Source: Sphingobacteriales bacterium
GTDB taxonomy: Bacteria > Bacteroidota > Bacteroidia > Chitinophagales > Chitinophagaceae
DNA length: 64,000 nt
NCBI GenBank assembly: GCA_016185185.1
Contig: JACPOD010000013.1
Coordinates: forward strand, 34,868 to 98,867
Direction: 5' to 3'
The notes beneath the pieces were generated by a model. The model made no database searches, had not been told where the DNA came from, and saw only the letters and a list, made by a program, of their open reading frames with translations. Positions 54,605 to 64,000 of the stretch are shown here, piece after piece. Both the position numbers and the translations under genes were made by a program. Every line of letters starts with the position of its first letter. Position 1 is the stretch's first letter.

Positions 54605-54626
54605 TATTGTTTTCAATCTAATGATA

Positions 54627-54656
54627 AATCCTTCACACAAGTGAAGGATTTTTTTT
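54627..54656 (+). terminator. Terminator after tonB
   Basis: AATCCTTCACACAAGTGAAGGATTTTTTTTG. Confidence 0.8.
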
Positions 54657-54730: not shown

Positions 54731-54738
54731 TATCTTTG
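54731..54738 (+). promoter_or_regulatory. Putative -7 element of arg operon promoter
   Basis: TATCTTTG; matches TAnnTTTG; -33 element not clear. Confidence 0.45.
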
Positions 54739-54765
54739 CGTTTTATTACTAACACATAACTGAAA

Positions 54766-54867
54766 TTGAAAACGAATTCAGCAAATATCAACAACGTTAA
54801 TGCACACAGTTTGTGTGGTTATGTATTGATTAGTGTTTCTTCTCCTCAACCGCGACGTGGATTCTGA
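54766..54867 (+). CDS. Candidate 33-aa leader peptide with tandem Arg codons (TTG start assumed)
   Basis: TTG AAA ACG ... CCT CAA CCG CGA CGT GGA TTC TGA = (M)KTNSANINNVNAHSLCGYVLISVSSPQPRRGF*; stop lies in the 5' arm of a hairpin. Confidence 0.4.
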   Translation: MKTNSANINNVNAHSLCGYVLISVSSPQPRRGF

Positions 54868-54899
54868 CAGGACGAGCCGCTTACCATGGCCCCTGTCAG
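54864..54899 (+). promoter_or_regulatory. Hairpin in arg operon leader
   Basis: CTGACAGG (54864-54871) / CCTGTCAG (54892-54899), perfect 8-bp stem. Confidence 0.55.
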
Positions 54900-54967
54900 T
54901 GAATATTTCCCCAACAAATTATAATCGGACTGGTAATCCAATTTTCTTCCAATTTTTATTTTAAAAA

Positions 54968-55654
54968 GTGGACAATCAAAATATAATTATTCGTGTAGCC
55001 AATAGTGGCGATACTCATTTTGCCATTGCGATTACTGATGAAATGGCTTCTTCCGCACAGGCAAGAGGAACTGGTATAGCCAAACGTACACCTGAATATG
55101 TAGCTGAGAAAATGAATGAAGGTAAAGCGGTTATTGCTTATACCAAAGATGGTGATTGGGTTGGCTTCTGTTATATAGAAACCTGGAGTCACGGAGAGTA
55201 TGTTGCCAATAGTGGATTAATAGTAACGCCTGCTTATCGAAAAGGAGGAGTGGCAAAAGCCATTAAGAAAAGGATATTTGAGCTTTCCAGAGAGAAATAT
55301 CCTGAAGCTAAATTGTTTGGTTTAACAACCGGTTTGGCGGTAATGAAGATCAATAGTGAACTGGGATATGAGCCTGTTACTTATTCGGAGTTAACACAAG
55401 ATGAAGCTTTCTGGGCAGGCTGTAAGAGTTGTGTGAATTATGAGATATTGATGAGTAAGGACAGGAAGAACTGTATGTGCACTGCCATGCTTTTTGACCC
55501 CAAAGACCATTACAAGCCAGAAGAAACAAAACAATATTTTGAGGAGAATAAAAGTGGATTTGAACGATTACTCAAATTCAAACAGTGGAAATTGCTGAAA
55601 CCATTTTTGAAGCCCCCAACCCTAAAGGGGAGAATGAAAGAGGTGACAGTGTAA
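54968..55654 (+). CDS. GNAT family acetyltransferase, candidate N-acyl-glutamate synthase heading the arg operon
   Basis: GLIVTPAYRKGGVAKAIKKRIFELSREKYPEAKLFGLTTGLAVMKINSELGYEPV; conserved Cys pairs CKSC/CMC; GTG start; operon position. Confidence 0.75.
   Translation: MDNQNIIIRVANSGDTHFAIAITDEMASSAQARGTGIAKRTPEYVAEKMNEGKAVIAYTKDGDWVGFCYIETWSHGEYVANSGLIVTPAYRKGGVAKAIKKRIFELSREKYPEAKLFGLTTGLAVMKINSELGYEPVTYSELTQDEAFWAGCKSCVNYEILMSKDRKNCMCTAMLFDPKDHYKPEETKQYFEENKSGFERLLKFKQWKLLKPFLKPPTLKGRMKEVTV
55613..55630 (-). repeat. PE1, 3'-type copy encoding GNAT C-terminal tail (KPPTLKGR)
   Basis: CCCCCAACCCTAAAGGGG. Confidence 0.8.
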
Positions 55655-55693: not shown

Positions 55694-56971
55694 ATGAATG
55701 CAGATACTAATAAAACTTCCAACATCACCCCTTTAGGGGCCGGGGGCAAAATAGTCTTGGGATTTAGTGGTGGATTAGATACGACCTACTGTGTTAAATA
55801 TCTCAGTGAAGAAAAAGGATATGAGGTACATAGTGTGATTGTAAATACCGGCGGTTTTAGCGGGGATGAATTAAAAAAGATAGAAGCACATGCTTACAAA
55901 CTGGGTGTAAAAACACATACTACTGTAAATGCGGTAAAAGGATATTATGACCGCATTATTAAATACCTCATTTACGGAAACTGTTTAAAAAATAATACCT
56001 ATCCACTCAGCGTATCTGCAGAACGATTAAGCCAGGCTTTGCATATTGCAGAACATGTAAAAGCATTGAATGCAGATGCTGTTGCTCATGGCAGTACGGG
56101 TGCTGGTAATGACCAGGTGAGGTTTGATATGATTTTTCATATCATGATTCCCGGAGTGGAAATTATTACTCCCATCCGTGATTTAAAGCTGAGCCGGGAA
56201 GAAGAGATTGCATATTTGAAAAGCAAAGGTGTGGAGATGAATGCTGAAAAAGCGATGTACTCCATCAATAAAGGATTGTGGGGAACCAGTGTGGGAGGAA
56301 AAGAAACGTTGTCTTCAAAAGGAATGTTACCGGAGGAAGCATGGCCTACGCAGGTAACTAAAACAGGCAGTGAAGAAGTGAAGCTGAGTTTTGTAAAAGG
56401 TGAATTAAAAGCAGTTAATGATAAAACATTTGATCATCCGGCAGATGCAATACAATATTTACAATCTATTGCAGGTGCTTACGGTGTAGGTAGAGATATC
56501 CACGTAGGAGATACTATCATTGGCATTAAAGGAAGAGTGGGATTTGAAGCTGCTGCACCGATGATTATTTTAAAATCACATCATGCCTTAGAAAAACATG
56601 TATTGACTAAATGGCAATTACAATGGAAAGATACCTTAGCACAATTCTATGGTAACTGGATGCATGAGGGACAGATATTAGACCCGGTGATGAGAGATAT
56701 TGAAGCTTTCCTGGAAAACAGCCAGCAAAATGTAACAGGTGATGTGTTTGTCAATCTTCAGCCATATCGTTTCCAGGTGATTGGTATTGATAGCAAGTAT
56801 GATTTAATGAGCAGCAAGTTTGGTAAATATGGTGAAATGAACACCGGCTTTACCGGAGAAGATGTAAGAGGCTTTAGTAAAATATTTGGCAACCAAACAA
56901 GGATTTGGGAAGCGGTAAATAAAACGGCCTCCCCAAACCCCTCCAAAGGAGGGCTTAAAGAAACCCGATAA
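55694..56971 (+). CDS. argG: Argininosuccinate synthase
   Basis: IVLGFSGGLDTTYCVKYL, AVAHGSTGAGNDQVRFDM, INKGLWGTSVGGKETL. Confidence 0.95.
   Translation: MNADTNKTSNITPLGAGGKIVLGFSGGLDTTYCVKYLSEEKGYEVHSVIVNTGGFSGDELKKIEAHAYKLGVKTHTTVNAVKGYYDRIIKYLIYGNCLKNNTYPLSVSAERLSQALHIAEHVKALNADAVAHGSTGAGNDQVRFDMIFHIMIPGVEIITPIRDLKLSREEEIAYLKSKGVEMNAEKAMYSINKGLWGTSVGGKETLSSKGMLPEEAWPTQVTKTGSEEVKLSFVKGELKAVNDKTFDHPADAIQYLQSIAGAYGVGRDIHVGDTIIGIKGRVGFEAAAPMIILKSHHALEKHVLTKWQLQWKDTLAQFYGNWMHEGQILDPVMRDIEAFLENSQQNVTGDVFVNLQPYRFQVIGIDSKYDLMSSKFGKYGEMNTGFTGEDVRGFSKIFGNQTRIWEAVNKTASPNPSKGGLKETR
55728..55746 (+). repeat. PE1, in-frame N-terminal copy in argG (TPLGAGG)
   Basis: CCCCTTTAGGGGCCGGGGG. Confidence 0.85.
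56928..56953 (-). repeat. PE1, in-frame C-terminal copy in argG (ASPNPSKGG)
   Basis: CCTCCCCAAACCCCTCCAAAGGAGGG. Confidence 0.85.
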
Positions 56972-56973
56972 TT

Positions 56974-58002
56974 ATGAGTCATTCAATAAATACGGAATCT
57001 AAAAAAACCTCTCCCTTTGGGAGAGGTTTGGTGAGGGCTGGTATCATTGGTGGAGCTGGTTACACTGGCGGAGAATTGATCAGGTTATTGATCAATCATC
57101 CTGCAGTTGAGTTGGCTTTCATTCATAGCCGCAGTAATGCCGGCAAGCCTGTATATGCTATTCACCAGGATTTATTGGGTGAAACTGAGTTAATCTTTAC
57201 TGGTGAATTGAATAATGATATTGATGTATTGTTTCTTTGTCTGGGTCACGGCGAATCCAAAAAGTTTTTAGAAGATCATGTAATTCATGACAGGATTAAG
57301 ATAATTGATTTAGCCAACGACTTTCGCTTAGCTCACAGCTCACAGCTCGGAACTCGCAGCTTCATCTACGGTCTTCCTGAATTAAACAGGGAGATAATTA
57401 AATCTGCAAACAACATTGCTAATCCCGGCTGTTTTGCTACAGCTATTCAATTAGGATTACTGCCATTAGCTAAAGCAGGTTTATTGAGTGATGTTTATAC
57501 AACAGGCATTACTGGTTCAACTGGCGCCGGACAAAGCCTGTCTTCTACTTCTCATTTTAGCTGGAGAGCAAACAATATACAAGCGTATAAAACTTTAACG
57601 CACCAGCATCTTGGAGAAATAGGTCAATCGCTGATGCAGTTGCAGTCTGCCGGGGATGTGAAAGTAAATTTTGTTCCGTGGAGAGGAGATTTTACAAGAG
57701 GTATTTTCATTAGCTCACAATTAAGTTGTGAGTCAGACCTTGATGAATTAAATAAATTATACGATGATTATTACAGTAGTCATCCGTTTGTTCATATAAG
57801 TAATGAGCCAATATTTTTAAAGCAAGTGGTGAATACAAACAAATGTATTATCCAGTTAGAAAAAACTGGTAAGCAGTTAGTGATTCATTCAATAGCAGAT
57901 AATTTATTAAAAGGAGCAAGCGGACAGGCAGTACAGAATATGAATTTAATGTTTGGATTGGATGAGACAATTGGTTTGAAATTAAAAGCAAATTATTTTT
58001 AA
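56974..58002 (+). CDS. argC: N-acetyl-gamma-glutamyl-phosphate reductase
   Basis: AGIIGGAGYTGGELIRLLINHPAVEL, YGLPELNREIIKSANNIANPGCFATAIQLGLLPL. Confidence 0.95.
   Translation: MSHSINTESKKTSPFGRGLVRAGIIGGAGYTGGELIRLLINHPAVELAFIHSRSNAGKPVYAIHQDLLGETELIFTGELNNDIDVLFLCLGHGESKKFLEDHVIHDRIKIIDLANDFRLAHSSQLGTRSFIYGLPELNREIIKSANNIANPGCFATAIQLGLLPLAKAGLLSDVYTTGITGSTGAGQSLSSTSHFSWRANNIQAYKTLTHQHLGEIGQSLMQLQSAGDVKVNFVPWRGDFTRGIFISSQLSCESDLDELNKLYDDYYSSHPFVHISNEPIFLKQVVNTNKCIIQLEKTGKQLVIHSIADNLLKGASGQAVQNMNLMFGLDETIGLKLKANYF
57008..57037 (+). repeat. PE1, in-frame N-terminal copy in argC (TSPFGRGLVR)
   Basis: CCTCTCCCTTTGGGAGAGGTTTGGTGAGGG. Confidence 0.8.
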
Positions 58003-58074: not shown

Positions 58075-59262
58075 ATGAACTTATTTGATGTATATCCTCT
58101 TAACGACATCACCATCGTAAAAGCAAAAGGCTCTTATGTATGGGATGATAAAGGTGAACAATACCTTGACCTCTACGGTGGTCATGCGGTAATCAGCATT
58201 GGTCATACGCATCCGCATTGGGTGCAGAGAATAGAAGAGCAACTTGAAAAGATTGCTTTTTATTCAAATTCCATTCGCATTCCATTACAGCAACAATTAG
58301 CAGAGAAGCTGGGTAAAGTTTCAGGTAAAGAAGATTATCAATTGTTCCTCTGTAATAGCGGAGCTGAAGCCAATGAAAATGCTTTGAAATTAGCTTCGTT
58401 TCATAATGGAAGAAAGAAGATTGTGGCCTTTAGTAAATCTTTTCATGGAAGAACATCATTAGCAGTTTCAGCAACAGATAATAAAAATTATATCGCACCG
58501 GTTAACGAAACAGATAATGTAATCTTTCTTCCGCTGAATGATGAACAAGCACTGGAGGCTTGCTTTAAAAAGAATGGCAAACAAATTTCTTCTGTGATCA
58601 TTGAAGGTATACAGGGTGTGGGTGGAATTAATGTAGCGGAAAATTCATTCCTACAGAAGATTCGGCAGCTATGTGATGAGTATGGAGCAGTTTATATCGC
58701 TGATAGTATTCAGTGCGGTTATGGAAGAAGCGGTAAGTTTTTCAGTCACGATTTTGCCGGGGTAAGTGCGGATATTTATACCATGGCAAAAGGAATGGGA
58801 AATGGTTTTCCCGTTGCCGGTATTATCATTGCTCCGCATATTAAGCCTAAATATTTTCAATTAGGAACAACCTTTGGTGGTAATCATCTGGCCTGTGCTG
58901 CTGCGTTAGCTGTGCTGGAAGTAATTGAAGAAGAAAAATTATTGGGTAATACTGCTACGGTTGGTTTCTATTTAAGAGAAGAATTGAAAAAGATTCCGCA
59001 ACTGAAAAATGTAAGAGGAAGAGGATTGATGATTGGTTTTGATGTTCCGGAAGAATTAAAAGATTTAAAAAAGAACTTATTGTTCAATCAAAAAATATTT
59101 ACAGGCGAAGCAAAACCAAATGTGATTCGTTTATTGCCTTCATTAGCATTGCGTAAAAGAGATGCGGAACAATTTATTGAAGCGATAAAAGAGGAGGTTG
59201 CGGCCCCCTCTAACTCCCCCAAAGGGGGAGAACAGGCAAGCACACAAAGCCAACTTGTATAA
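58075..59262 (+). CDS. argD: Acetylornithine (or succinylornithine) aminotransferase
   Basis: YLDLYGGHAVISIGHTHPHWV, FLCNSGAEANENALKLA, YTMAKGMGNGFPVAGII, GTTFGGNHLACAAALAVLEVI. Confidence 0.94.
   Translation: MNLFDVYPLNDITIVKAKGSYVWDDKGEQYLDLYGGHAVISIGHTHPHWVQRIEEQLEKIAFYSNSIRIPLQQQLAEKLGKVSGKEDYQLFLCNSGAEANENALKLASFHNGRKKIVAFSKSFHGRTSLAVSATDNKNYIAPVNETDNVIFLPLNDEQALEACFKKNGKQISSVIIEGIQGVGGINVAENSFLQKIRQLCDEYGAVYIADSIQCGYGRSGKFFSHDFAGVSADIYTMAKGMGNGFPVAGIIIAPHIKPKYFQLGTTFGGNHLACAAALAVLEVIEEEKLLGNTATVGFYLREELKKIPQLKNVRGRGLMIGFDVPEELKDLKKNLLFNQKIFTGEAKPNVIRLLPSLALRKRDAEQFIEAIKEEVAAPSNSPKGGEQASTQSQLV
59204..59229 (-). repeat. PE1, in-frame C-terminal copy in argD (APSNSPKGGE)
   Basis: CCCCCTCTAACTCCCCCAAAGGGGGA. 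Confidence 0.85.
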
Positions 59263-59497: not shown

Positions 59498-60508
59498 TTG
59501 AAACATTTCACTTCAGTAAACGACATTGTAAGCCCCTCCTTTGGAGGGGTTGGGGAGGCCATCAATGCTCTGGTTAAAAAAGCATTGGTGTACAAAGCCA
59601 ATCCGTTTAAGGATAAAACGCTGGGTGCAAATAAACGCATTGGTTGTTTGTTTCTTAACCCGAGTATGCGTACGAGGCTAAGTACACAAATTGCTGCACA
59701 GAACCTGGGAATGGAAGCTATCATCTTCAATGTGGGAAGTGAAGGATGGGCACTGGAGTTTGAAGAAGAGGCCATCATGAGTGGTAATACGGTGGAGCAT
59801 GTAAAAGATGCCGCACCCATTATGGGAAAATATTTTGATGTGCTGGCGATAAGAACATTTCCTTCGTTAAAGAACAGGGAAGATGATTACAGTGAATTAT
59901 ACATTAAACAATTTATAAAATACGCTGGTATCCCGGTAGTGAGTTTGGAAAGTGCAACGCTTCATCCATTACAGTCGTTAACGGATATAATTACAATACA
60001 GGAACAAATTGCAGTGACCCCCCCGTTGGGGGGCAGGGGGGCTAAAATAGTTCTCACCTGGGCGCCACATGTAAAGCCTTTGCCGCAATGTGTAGCCAAT
60101 AGTTTTTCTCAATGGATAAATGCCTGGGGCGAAGCAGATTTTGTGATTACCCATCCTGAAGAATATGAACTGGATGAGCAGTTCACAAAAGGTGCGGTTA
60201 TAACACATAATCAAAATGAAGCATTAAAAGATGCCGATTATGTGTATGTAAAAAACTGGAGTACTTTTAATGATTATGGAAAAATTTATTGTAATGATCC
60301 GGAGTGGATGCTGACCCGGGAAAAATTAAAGCTGACTACTAACGCTAAAGTGATGCATTGTTTGCCAGTAAGAAGAAATGTAGAACTGAGTGATGAGATA
60401 CTGGATAGCGCTAACAGTATTGTAACACAGGAAGCATCGAATAGAGTTTGGGCTGCACAAGCGGTGCTGAGTACCCTCCTAACCTCCCTAAAGGGAGGAG
60501 CTGAATAA
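59498..60508 (+). CDS. N-succinyl/N-acetyl-L-ornithine carbamoyltransferase (ArgF'-type)
   Basis: IGCLFLNPSMRTRLSTQIAAQNLGMEAII, RTFPSLKNREDDYSELYIKQFIKYAGIPVVSLESATLHPLQSLTDIITI, VMHCLPVRRNVELSDEIL. Confidence 0.9.
   Translation: MKHFTSVNDIVSPSFGGVGEAINALVKKALVYKANPFKDKTLGANKRIGCLFLNPSMRTRLSTQIAAQNLGMEAIIFNVGSEGWALEFEEEAIMSGNTVEHVKDAAPIMGKYFDVLAIRTFPSLKNREDDYSELYIKQFIKYAGIPVVSLESATLHPLQSLTDIITIQEQIAVTPPLGGRGAKIVLTWAPHVKPLPQCVANSFSQWINAWGEADFVITHPEEYELDEQFTKGAVITHNQNEALKDADYVYVKNWSTFNDYGKIYCNDPEWMLTREKLKLTTNAKVMHCLPVRRNVELSDEILDSANSIVTQEASNRVWAAQAVLSTLLTSLKGGAE
59533..59556 (+). repeat. PE1, in-frame N-terminal copy in argF (SPSFGGVGE)
   Basis: CCCCTCCTTTGGAGGGGTTGGGGA. Confidence 0.85.
60018..60041 (+). 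repeat. PE1, in-frame internal copy in argF (TPPLGGRG)
   Basis: CCCCCCCGTTGGGGGGCAGGGGGG. Confidence 0.85.
60474..60498 (-). repeat. PE1, in-frame C-terminal copy in argF (TLLTSLKGGA)
   Basis: CCCTCCTAACCTCCCTAAAGGGAGG. Confidence 0.85.
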
Positions 60509-60514
60509 TTCATT

Positions 60515-61357
60515 ATGAAAGAAAAACTTTACATAGTTAAAATAGGTGGTAATATTATTGATGATGAAGCTAAACTTTCAGCATTTATAAAACTATTTGC
60601 TGAGTTGTTTGGAAATAATTCTTCATACCCCTTTGGGGGCAGGGGGCTATTGATTCATGGCGGTGGTAAAGTGGCCACTAAGATTGGTGATAAGTTAGGC
60701 ATTGAATCAAAATATGTGGATGGAAGAAGAATAACAGATGCAGAGACAATTGATGTGGTGACGATGGTATATGGCGGACTGGTAAATAAAAAGATCGTAG
60801 CACAACTGCAGGCTAATGGCTGTAATGCCATTGGTGTTACAGGCGCTGATGCAAACTTGATTCCCGCATCAAAAAGACCGGTTAAAGAAATTGATTATGG
60901 TTTTGTGGGAGACGTGAAGAGTGAACAGTTGACGGTTGACTGTTGGCAGTTATTACTGAATAGCGGACTGACTCCTGTGGTTGCTCCGTTAACACATGAT
61001 GGTAAAGGGCAAATTTTAAATACCAATGCGGATACTATGGCGCAGGAAGTTGCCAAGGTATTAAGCAGTGTTTATGAAGTAACGCTGATTTATTCTTTCG
61101 AGAAAGAAGGTGTGCTGTTAGATGTAAATGATGAATCTTCTGTTATTAAAGAGTTGAAATGGGAATATTATCAACAACTAAAGAATCCTAACTCCCCTTC
61201 AGGGGTTGGGGGCAAAATATTTGCAGGAATGATTCCTAAACTGGATAATGCTTTTGCTGCATTGAACAGTGGTGTTAGGAAGGTAATCATCGGTAAAGCA
61301 GAAAAGCTGGATGAATTAATTACTGGCGCCAGCGGAACAAGCATCGTCAATGAGTGA
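60515..61357 (+). CDS. argB: Acetylglutamate kinase
   Basis: YIVKIGGNIIDDE, LLIHGGGKVATKIGDKLGI, GVTGADANLI, GQILNTNADTMA, MIPKLDNAFAALNSGV. Confidence 0.94.
   Translation: MKEKLYIVKIGGNIIDDEAKLSAFIKLFAELFGNNSSYPFGGRGLLIHGGGKVATKIGDKLGIESKYVDGRRITDAETIDVVTMVYGGLVNKKIVAQLQANGCNAIGVTGADANLIPASKRPVKEIDYGFVGDVKSEQLTVDCWQLLLNSGLTPVVAPLTHDGKGQILNTNADTMAQEVAKVLSSVYEVTLIYSFEKEGVLLDVNDESSVIKELKWEYYQQLKNPNSPSGVGGKIFAGMIPKLDNAFAALNSGVRKVIIGKAEKLDELITGASGTSIVNE
60628..60646 (+). repeat. PE1, in-frame internal copy in argB (YPFGGRG)
   Basis: CCCCTTTGGGGGCAGGGGG. Confidence 0.85.
61187..61212 (+). repeat. PE1, in-frame internal copy in argB (NPNSPSGVGG); full palindrome
   Basis: CCTAACTCCCCTTCAGGGGTTGGGGG. 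Confidence 0.85.
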
Positions 61358-62474
61358 TAACCTGAACATATTACAATCTTCTGCAATCAACTTATTAAAA
61401 GAACTGATTGAAACACCTTCTTTCAGTAAAGAAGAAGACCAGACGGCTGGTATCATTTGCCGGTTTTTAGGAGAGAGAGGTGTTGTGCATTATCGTTCAG
61501 GAAATAATGTGTGGGCTAAGAACAAATTTTATGACATCAACAAACCAACTATTCTGCTTAATTCACATCATGATACGGTAAAGCCCAACAAAGGATATAC
61601 ACTCGACCCATTTTCTCCAATAGAAAAAGAAGGAAAATTATTTGGATTGGGCAGCAATGATGCAGGAGGTGCATTGGTGAGTTTGATTGCAACGTTTTTA
61701 TATTTTTACGATAAAGCGGATTTAAAATATAATTTAGTATTGGCTGCCACAGCAGAAGAAGAAATAAGTGGAACTAATGGAATAGAATTGCTGTTACAAG
61801 ATGAAATGTTTACTGATGCAAAGGACAGCAGCGCAGGTTCCCCCTTTAGGGGCCAGGGGCGTGAATGGGTTGCCATTGTGGGTGAACCAACGCAAATGCA
61901 AATGGCTGTTGCAGAAAAAGGACTGCTGGTATTGGATTGTATTGCTTATGGTAAAGCTGGTCATGCGGCAAGAGAAGAAGGAGAGAATGCATTGTATAAA
62001 GCGTTAAAAGATATTAAGTGGATTTCAACGTACCACTTTCCTAAATTATCTGAACTGCTCGGACCAGTAAAGATGAGTGTGACAGTTATTGAAACAGATA
62101 ACAAACAACATAATGTAGTGCCTGCCCAATGTAAGTTTGTGGTGGATATACGAGTAAACGAATTATATACTCACGAAGAAATTATAGAGACGGTAAAGCA
62201 ACATATTCAAAGTGAAGTAAAGCCAAGAAGCACCCGTTTGCGTTCTTCATCCATTACATTGGGACATCCGTTGGTAAAAGCAGGAATCAGTTTGGGAAGA
62301 ACCTACTACGGTTCACCTACCACCTCTGATAAAGCATTGATGCCTTTCCCGGCATTGAAGATGGGTCCTGGCGATAGTGCAAGAAGCCATACAGCCGATG
62401 AGTATATTTATGTGAATGAGATTAATGAAGGAATTGATTTGTACATTCGGTTATTGAATCAACTTGTGCAATAG
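61350..62474 (+). CDS. argE: M20 family peptidase; acetyl/succinyl-ornithine (citrulline) deacylase
   Basis: ILLNSHHDTVKPNKGYTLDPF, GLGSNDAGGALVSLIA, AATAEEEISGTNGIE. Confidence 0.9.
   Translation: MSDNLNILQSSAINLLKELIETPSFSKEEDQTAGIICRFLGERGVVHYRSGNNVWAKNKFYDINKPTILLNSHHDTVKPNKGYTLDPFSPIEKEGKLFGLGSNDAGGALVSLIATFLYFYDKADLKYNLVLAATAEEEISGTNGIELLLQDEMFTDAKDSSAGSPFRGQGREWVAIVGEPTQMQMAVAEKGLLVLDCIAYGKAGHAAREEGENALYKALKDIKWISTYHFPKLSELLGPVKMSVTVIETDNKQHNVVPAQCKFVVDIRVNELYTHEEIIETVKQHIQSEVKPRSTRLRSSSITLGHPLVKAGISLGRTYYGSPTTSDKALMPFPALKMGPGDSARSHTADEYIYVNEINEGIDLYIRLLNQLVQ
61840..61859 (+). repeat. PE1, in-frame internal copy in argE (SPFRGQG)
   Basis: CCCCCTTTAGGGGCCAGGGG. Confidence 0.8.
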
Positions 62475-62930: not shown

Positions 62931-64000
62931 ATGAAACTCTGGCAAAAGAACATAACAGTATCTGACGCAGTAGAAAAATTTACTGTGGGAAATGACAAGG
63001 AGATGGACTTGTATCTTGCTAGGTACGATGTGCTTGGTTCCATCGCTCATGTTACTATGCTGGAGACGATTGGTTTGTTAACTGCAGATGAAAAAAAAAT
63101 ACTGGTCAAAGAGCTTCAGTCAATTTATTCAGAAATTCAAAATTCAAATTTTAAAATTCAAAATGAGGTGGAGGATATCCATTCTCAGATAGAACTATTA
63201 CTCATTCAGCGGTTAGGTGAAGTGGGGAAGAAGATACATAGCGGCAGAAGTCGCAATGACCAGGTGCTGGTGGATATCAAATTGTTTCTAAGAGCTGAGA
63301 TTGAGAAAACGGTGAATGCAGCTAAATCATTATTTGATTTACTGATTGAATTAAGTGAGCAGCATAAAAATATTTTACTGCCCGGTTATACGCATTTGCA
63401 AATTGCCATGCCTTCTTCTTTTGGTTTGTGGTTAGGTGCTTATGCGGAAAGTTTGGTGGATGATGTTATCAGTTTTCAATCAGCTTATAAAGTAGTTAAT
63501 AAAAATCCATTAGGTTCCGCGGCAGGTTATGGTTCATCCTTTCCATTGAACAGAACATTGACTACTCATCTGCTCGGTTTTGAATCCCCCAATTACAATG
63601 TAGTAGCTGCACAGATGAGTCGTGGCAAGAGTGAAAGAATAGTAGCACAATCTATCAGTAATGTGGCAGCAACATTAAGCAAACTGGCTTACGATTGCTG
63701 TTTGTATATGAACCAGAATTTTGGTTTCATTTCATTTCCGGATGAATTAACAACCGGCAGCAGCATCATGCCACATAAAAAGAATCCGGATGTGTTTGAG
63801 CTGATAAGGGCTAAGTGCAATCAATTGCAGGCTTTGCCCAATGAAATTGCCTTCGTTGCCAACAATCTTCCGTCCGGTTATCACCGGGATTTTCAATTGC
63901 TGAAAGAACAACTCTTCCCTGCTTTTGAAAAACTCCGCAACTGTATGGATATGATGCAACTGATGCTGAGTAATATGAAAGTGAAAGAGGATATACTGGG
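62931..64000 (+). CDS. argH: Argininosuccinate lyase, truncated by window edge
   Basis: MKLWQKNITVSDAVEKFTVGNDKEMDLYLARYDVLGSIAHVTML, GRSRNDQVLVDIKLF, TTGSSIMPHKKNPDVFELIRAK; not in ORF track because it is open at the 3' edge. Confidence 0.93.
   Translation, partial: MKLWQKNITVSDAVEKFTVGNDKEMDLYLARYDVLGSIAHVTMLETIGLLTADEKKILVKELQSIYSEIQNSNFKIQNEVEDIHSQIELLLIQRLGEVGKKIHSGRSRNDQVLVDIKLFLRAEIEKTVNAAKSLFDLLIELSEQHKNILLPGYTHLQIAMPSSFGLWLGAYAESLVDDVISFQSAYKVVNKNPLGSAAGYGSSFPLNRTLTTHLLGFESPNYNVVAAQMSRGKSERIVAQSISNVAATLSKLAYDCCLYMNQNFGFISFPDELTTGSSIMPHKKNPDVFELIRAKCNQLQALPNEIAFVANNLPSGYHRDFQLLKEQLFPAFEKLRNCMDMMQLMLSNMKVKEDIL

Follow-up and report, generated by a model that had tools for sequence, protein, structure and literature searches.

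Attenuators of the trp/his type consist of a short translated ORF that contains codons for the product of its own operon and whose stop codon lies at or in a hairpin, such that the position of the ribosome decides which fold the RNA adopts. Several other leaders work in related ways. The LEU element, found upstream of leuA in Actinobacteria, combines a leader ORF carrying a run of Leu codons with a conserved pseudoknot and has no classic terminator; in this element, it is the run of Leu codons that pairs with the Shine-Dalgarno box (PMC1262725). In Salmonella, orf34/speFL precedes speF and contains two consecutive Arg codons (codons 12-13 of 34). A ribosome located either at these codons or at the stop decides whether a hairpin 3' of the stop codon forms, with Rho and RNA decay as outputs (PMC6386406). 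Likewise, rare Arg codons in the rbfL leader peptide of Staphylococcus aureus sense arginine limitation (PMC13009471). Finally, leader-peptide attenuation at amino acid operons of Flavobacterium psychrophilum is the subject of one main-text sentence, which does not name arginine (PMC9723704).

The leader described here shares traits with each of these systems. It has the general layout of the trp/his attenuators, but differs from them in its Arg codons, in the lack of an intrinsic terminator and in a predicted contact between the hairpin loop and a downstream segment. With the LEU element it shares a leader ORF with cognate codons, a predicted contact of the kissing or pseudoknot type and the lack of a classic terminator; unlike in that element, by its published definition, the Arg codons lie outside the stems (P1 and P1b) and the contact, upstream of a stem that contains the stop codon. 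Tandem Arg codons and a hairpin that would be read by ribosome position are reminiscent of speFL, which, however, controls an ornithine decarboxylase and carries its Arg codons far from the stop, whereas they are close to the stop and precede arginine synthesis genes in our case; a kinship to SpeFL seen by eye found no support in Pfam. As in rbfL, leader Arg codons would serve as the sensor of arginine limitation, and the F. psychrophilum leaders belong to the same phylum and likewise to amino acid biosynthesis operons (PMC9723704). In its broad sense, leader-peptide control is recognized by a short ORF with codons for the pathway product directly upstream of an operon, and this is what is found here; the arg leader is probably a form of such control outside speFL, LEU, rbfL and the other named families. 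A literature search, with most subscription journals outside its reach, returned no Bacteroidota arg leader of this kind.

The window, i.e. the whole analysed stretch of 64,000 nucleotides, belongs to a genome of 2.84 Mb in 122 contigs that is 81% complete. The leader is placed between a TonB-domain gene with a terminator at 54626-54651 and an arg operon of the order GNAT-argG-argC-argD-argF'-argB-argE-four-helix gene-argH. Its elements are:

54731-54738, + strand: Bacteroidota-type -7 promoter element TATCTTTG; the motif TAnnTTTG recurs upstream of homologous leaders
54766-54867, + strand: leader ORF, TTG start (54766-54768), 33 codons plus TGA, C-terminus ...SPQPRRGF; open in 127 of 127 homologues
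54853-54858, + strand: tandem Arg codons CGA (54853-54855) and CGT (54856-54858), the putative control codons; Arg pair kept in 122 of 127 homologues
54864-54871, + strand: 5' arm of P1, CTGACAGG; paired in 127 of 127, with C-G/U-A exchange
54865-54867, + strand: leader stop codon TGA within the P1 5' arm; register identical in all elements
54876-54878, + strand: 5' strand of the upper stem P1b, GCC; 92-97% paired, covarying
54881-54886, + strand: P1b loop TTACCA, predicted by complementarity to pair with 54931-54936
54888-54890, + strand: 3' strand of P1b, GGC; 92-97% paired, covarying
54892-54899, + strand: 3' arm of P1, CCTGTCAG; paired in 127 of 127, with C-G/U-A exchange
54927-54939, + strand: possible small hairpin P3, GGA-CTGGTAA-TCC, with the loop partner in its own loop; flanking GG/CC mostly conserved within the main group
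54931-54936, + strand: downstream partner of the P1b loop, TGGTAA, by complementarity

A sequence-only reading of this DNA had pointed to the -7 element, the frame (TTG)KTNSANINNVNAHSLCGYVLISVSSPQPRRGF-stop, the CGA CGT pair near its end and a perfect 8-bp hairpin with the TGA in its 5' arm, all of which are present as described, and it was also right that no U-tract follows the hairpin in the window. The promoter element recurs in the relatives: 101 of 127 leaders carry TAnnTTTG at a distance of 75-200 nt 5' of their stop codon, compared with 9 of 127 shuffled ones. The leader is followed by these operon genes:

54968-55654, + strand: GNAT-domain protein, first operon gene, GTG start (Pfam PF13508 and PF00583)
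55694-56971, + strand: argG (NCBIfam TIGR00032)
56974-58002, + strand: argC (TIGR01850)
58075-59262, + strand: argD-like transaminase (best match TIGR00707, below cut-off)
59498-60508, start uncertain, + strand: argF', N-acetylornithine carbamoyltransferase-like (best match NF003384, just below cut-off)
60515-61357, + strand: argB (TIGR00761)
61350-62474, + strand: argE/dapE-family deacylase (best match TIGR01910, below cut-off)
62931-63998, + strand: argH, extending past the window end (TIGR00838)

The GNAT gene has no NCBIfam name; a phylum-wide sample of 148 genomes contains it in 61, and, at a guess, its product may be the pathway's N-acetylglutamate synthase. Between argE and argH, the operon also contains a gene for a four-helix-bundle protein (TIGR02436; 62517-62906).

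To follow the element through its relatives, we built a covariance model from 18 leaders, which gave matches in 131 of the 399 family genomes, spread over 36 of 104 genera; among the matches listed, carriers belong to Sediminibacterium, Terrimonas, Flavihumibacter, Niabella, Flavisolibacter and Ferruginibacter. Nearly all P1-bearing matches lie upstream of a GNAT-argG operon. When 396 genomes from across the phylum were sampled, strong matches (E below 1e-7) were confined to the Chitinophagaceae, and three further, weak ones (E 0.002-0.006) had no stem. The exact pattern of the two arms was found in 78 of 249 family genomes, compared with none for a reversed control pattern, and in a DNA search of 150 family genomes conservation started near position 54840, inside the leader. 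The comparative set consists of 133 stem-bearing matches, 127 of them distinct. Weak covariance matches that were missing the stem (L040-L042, L162-L164) were dropped, as was a pattern match in one genome (L195 in G030), where the hairpin lies between unrelated genes. The leader and its hairpin are confirmed to be conserved well beyond chance.

Folding the window sequence by itself is unconvincing, as the hairpin is just mildly better than shuffled sequences (z -1.76) and the whole leader is close to them (z -0.40); the comparative evidence for the hairpin, by contrast, is convincing. The P1 arms occur as CTGACAGG/CCTGTCAG in 63 leaders, as CTGATAGG/CCTATCAG in 53 and as a G-U intermediate in 11, with no mismatched combination among the 127. 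Along a tree of the GNAT proteins, the variable pair changed about nine times on its 5' side and about seven times on its 3' side, and all 122 of 122 leaders stay paired. P1b shows G-C/A-U and C-G/A-U exchanges. A formal tree-based covariation test, which had three well-supported independent pairs to draw on, remained below significance. Searches of the leader and the whole window against Rfam yielded no match at the curated threshold and only weak, chance-level ones; automated annotation will therefore probably overlook the RNA as well as the leader gene.

The P1b loop is complementary to a segment 25-40 nt further downstream, and the complementarity recurs with other sequences elsewhere, as in TCACCA/TGGTGA, TAACCA/TGGTTA and TGCACCG/TGGTGTA or, in other subgroups, in AGTTGGC/GCCAATT and TGGCACTT/AAGTGTCA; some subgroups apparently do without the contact. 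The complementarity of a leader's own pair averages 12.8, compared with 11.5 +/- 0.17 for loops exchanged between genomes (60 rounds, none above 12.0), a shuffle that ignores relatedness, and the variable central pair of the contact is formed in 39 of 63 cases. For these two reasons, the blind spot of the shuffle and the count for the central pair, we call the contact supported, not proven: the P1b loop tends to be able to pair with the downstream element, in what would be a kissing loop or a pseudoknot. A partner of the form GGAnTGGTnATCC could itself be presented as the loop of a short hairpin, which would give a kissing contact; the possible P3 has its GGnnGGTnnnCC form in 65 of 127 leaders. 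The sequence-only reading had described P1 correctly, but overlooked the upper stem, the pairing of its loop and the copies at proC discussed below.

There is strong comparative evidence that the leader ORF is translated. Its TGA occupies nucleotides 2-4 of the P1 stem, and the frame is open over at least 23 codons, in all 127 leaders, compared with 46% and 25% for the other frames. Among 27 leaders of equal length from the largest clade, the start column holds GTG (14), ATG (12) or TTG (1), and pN/pS before the last nine codons is about 0.12, as opposed to 3.5-4.0 in the other frames of the same DNA. For the window's own genus, values of 0.07-0.13 are obtained from few substitutions.

With the Arg codons, the stop and the stem in place, the position of the ribosome can be projected onto the RNA, with the leading edge placed at +16 from the P-site, a standard value. 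While waiting at the first Arg codon, a ribosome would leave the P1 5' arm fully uncovered in 100 of 122 leaders and would cover 2 nt of it in 21 of 122; the window leader is a case with 2 of the 8 nt covered. From the last Arg codon, its coverage would be 5 nt in 67 of 122 leaders and 2 nt in 40 of 122, and no more than 5 nt in nearly all of them; at the TGA, it would cover all 8 nt. The sequence-only reading had placed a ribosome stalled at the Arg pair over the 5' arm; at the first Arg codon, such a ribosome merely abuts the stem, and at the last one it mostly reaches no further than five of the eight nucleotides. The wider suggestion of attenuation-like, non-classic control by an Arg leader and a hairpin is supported, with the peptide end, the stop position and the stem conserved in an alignment of relatives, and with the stem covarying.

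Given the +16 geometry and the strict register of the stop codon, a starved ribosome should leave P1 free, while a ribosome that finishes the leader should block it. We consider it probable, on the strength of these sequence comparisons, that the leader acts as an RNA switch set by the position of the ribosome and responsive to charged tRNA-Arg, with P1 and the loop contact as its ON state. When charged tRNA-Arg is scarce, the ribosome would wait at the first Arg codons, its leading edge just reaching the base of P1, and P1 and the loop contact would form. When arginine is plentiful, it would reach the TGA and mask the whole 5' arm, so that P1 and the contact would be blocked when it matters. 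We take the folded form to be the ON, or anti-repression, state because starvation should induce arginine synthesis. Ribosomes short of arginine would thus probably reshape the message such that arginine synthesis is switched on.

The same geometry also accommodates the opposite sign, which we regard as the less likely, if quite possible, arrangement. Here, P1 and the contact would be the OFF state, acting through Rho loading, RNA decay or a block of the 30S subunit, and would form after normal termination of the leader, whereas stalling at the last Arg codon would let the ribosome keep P1 open; this comes closest to the picture drawn by the sequence-only reading. The five of eight nucleotides covered from the last Arg codon in 67 of 122 leaders fit such a role, and once a ribosome has left the stop codon, nothing would hinder the formation of P1. 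However, the place where a starved ribosome begins to wait is the first Arg codon, from which the arm stays entirely uncovered in 100 of 122 leaders, and the Arg codons vary in position (from -3 to -8), while the register of stop and stem is fixed.

The absence of a terminator, together with the strictly conserved register of stop and stem, suggests that the output step differs from that of classic attenuators. The window has no intrinsic terminator in the interval from the leader stop to the GNAT gene, and terminator-like sites occur in 4 of 127 leaders, compared with 7.2 expected from shuffling, so a classic attenuator of the trp/his type is not supported. In nested folds of 122 leaders with P1 either masked or free, the accessibility of the start region changed by 0.007 +/- 0.057, and sequestration of the start codon is not supported as an output. 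Between the P1 3' arm and the start region, just 4 bp can be made out by eye, and these are lost where the stem is CTGATAGG/CCTATCAG; frameshifting or read-through to a second stop 3' of P1 was rejected since neither the spacing nor this stop is conserved. How the RNA state would affect expression is something we infer, with Rho, 30S loading and RNA decay as candidates. In the OFF state, Rho-dependent termination would be most likely, in the untranslated stretch of about 100 nt before the first gene, which is richer in C than in G (3' of P1, 21.6% C vs 13.2% G); we favor it because there is no intrinsic terminator, no modelled change at the start site and such a C-over-G stretch. Loss of 30S loading or RNA decay would be alternative OFF outputs.

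That the leader senses arginine through its codons is suggested by their distribution and usage. At least two Arg codons fall within the last nine in 122 of 127 leaders, and the frequency of Arg is 0.84 at codon -4 and 0.61 at -6, compared with 0.00-0.05 from -9 upstream. Among 125 Arg codons from the examined genes of the window, just 10 are CGA, the rarest kind, yet CGA accounts for 159 of 352 leader Arg codons, while AGA, the commonest in these genes (37 of 125), accounts for just 15 of 352. CGN codons should largely be decoded by one isoacceptor group, and the codon choice of the leaders therefore fits the sensing of that tRNA.

Five of the 127 leaders do not have the Arg pair in their last nine codons, and three of these are second copies of the hairpin upstream of proC, found in three genomes of one genus (L158, L159 and L161 in g47), with the leader stop about 103 nt upstream of the gene. 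The identity of proC is given by NCBIfam for L161 and by the Pfam domain P5CR_dimer for L158 and L159. These leaders end in SPAPGC or PCPPPGC, with Pro codons in place of Arg, and Pro codons before a proline gene are the best single argument that the codons, and not the peptide sequence, set the specificity. The three copies may represent one event, and 30 proC loci examined outside this genus showed no Pro-rich leader ending in this hairpin. The swap from Arg to Pro is a ready-made natural experiment on specificity.

One clade, however, conserves more than codon sensing alone would need. In 57 of 127 leaders, we find a longer conserved peptide, HTK..FH....GVYAVGFDVF, whose distribution on the tree is patchy (about nine changes) and which shows a pN/pS of 0.12 outside the last nine codons. 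The peptide of this clade is possibly an arrest peptide, and the leaders at large could be read in the same way, as nascent chains that respond, within the exit tunnel, to free arginine (or free ornithine), with the Arg codons merely part of the motif. Two leaders without the Arg pair (L095, L135) have kept the remaining peptide, and two leaders without this hairpin (L028, L198) weakly resemble it. We nevertheless find this distinctly unlikely as a general explanation: in some other clades, pN/pS before the Arg end is 0.85-1.1, the Pro codons of the proC copies point to codon reading, and a Pfam search with four leader peptides at E up to 10 gave no match to known sensing leaders, including SpeFL/orf34 (DUF2618, PF10940). 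A side observation from this clade is that the peptide HTKQFAFHAPITSGVYAVGFDVF is kept across genera, for example in L054, L055 and L096, which is odd for a plain attenuator.

The strong sequence conservation of P1, of ACGA (54872-54875) and of TGRA after P1 would also suit a riboswitch-like element that binds a metabolite or a protein through P1 and the contact, with the overlapping Arg ORF as an incidental feature. This is highly improbable, as the ORF evolves in a protein-like manner, exchanges its start codons and is enriched in Arg at its end only, as Arg is swapped for Pro at proC, as ACGA and the contact are absent from some members, and as Rfam yields no match. Hardly any credence is due to the view that the hairpin is just an mRNA-stability or boundary element, next to a purely transcriptional control of arginine synthesis, because ArgR is not found in the genome or in 19 of 20 relatives and cognate codons at both the arg and the proC operons cannot be explained in this way.

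With PF02863, no match to ArgR was obtained in the genome itself (81% complete) or in 19 of 20 relatives, and the one marginal match in the remaining relative contains an internal stop codon; the same search was positive in Bacteroides. If the codon-reading switch holds, it suggests how a large bacterial group devoid of this repressor controls arginine synthesis, and the list of amino acids sensed through translated leaders of biosynthetic operons gains arginine and, through the codon swap, proline. A more far-reaching picture, in which Bacteroidota without ArgR use a terminator-less kissing-loop switch whose specificity can be exchanged with its codons, plus an arginine-sensing arrest peptide in one clade, appears doubtful to us as a whole.

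Codon-reading attenuation as such appears to be in use in this lineage, since a WWW leader and a terminator precede trpE. In the window's own genome, an ORF upstream of the trpE homologue (L375; G000:C31:6457-6903, - strand) ends in HWWWHTTLKGL (NNHWWWHTTLKGL-stop) and is followed by the GC hairpin GGCCCCGATAATATCGGGGC and a T-run, which looks like a classic trp attenuator; hisG was not found in this incomplete genome. Arg leaders are more widespread than the RNA described here, as argG leaders in other families occur without the CTGACAGG hairpin: in other Bacteroidota families, 13 of 27 argG loci are preceded by an ORF whose last 12 codons include four or more for Arg, compared with 1.35 expected in shuffles. 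At the GNAT-argG loci L198-L226, mostly from other Bacteroidota families, Arg-rich ORFs without the CTGACAGG hairpin end, for example, in SRRRPYMPRA, TRRCRPARFVRI or VRRRRYFFRV. Some leaders of the same family carry their stop codon in a different hairpin, such as TGATATTCC/GGAATATCA in L198 and TGATGCAGCT/AGCTGCATCA in L206.
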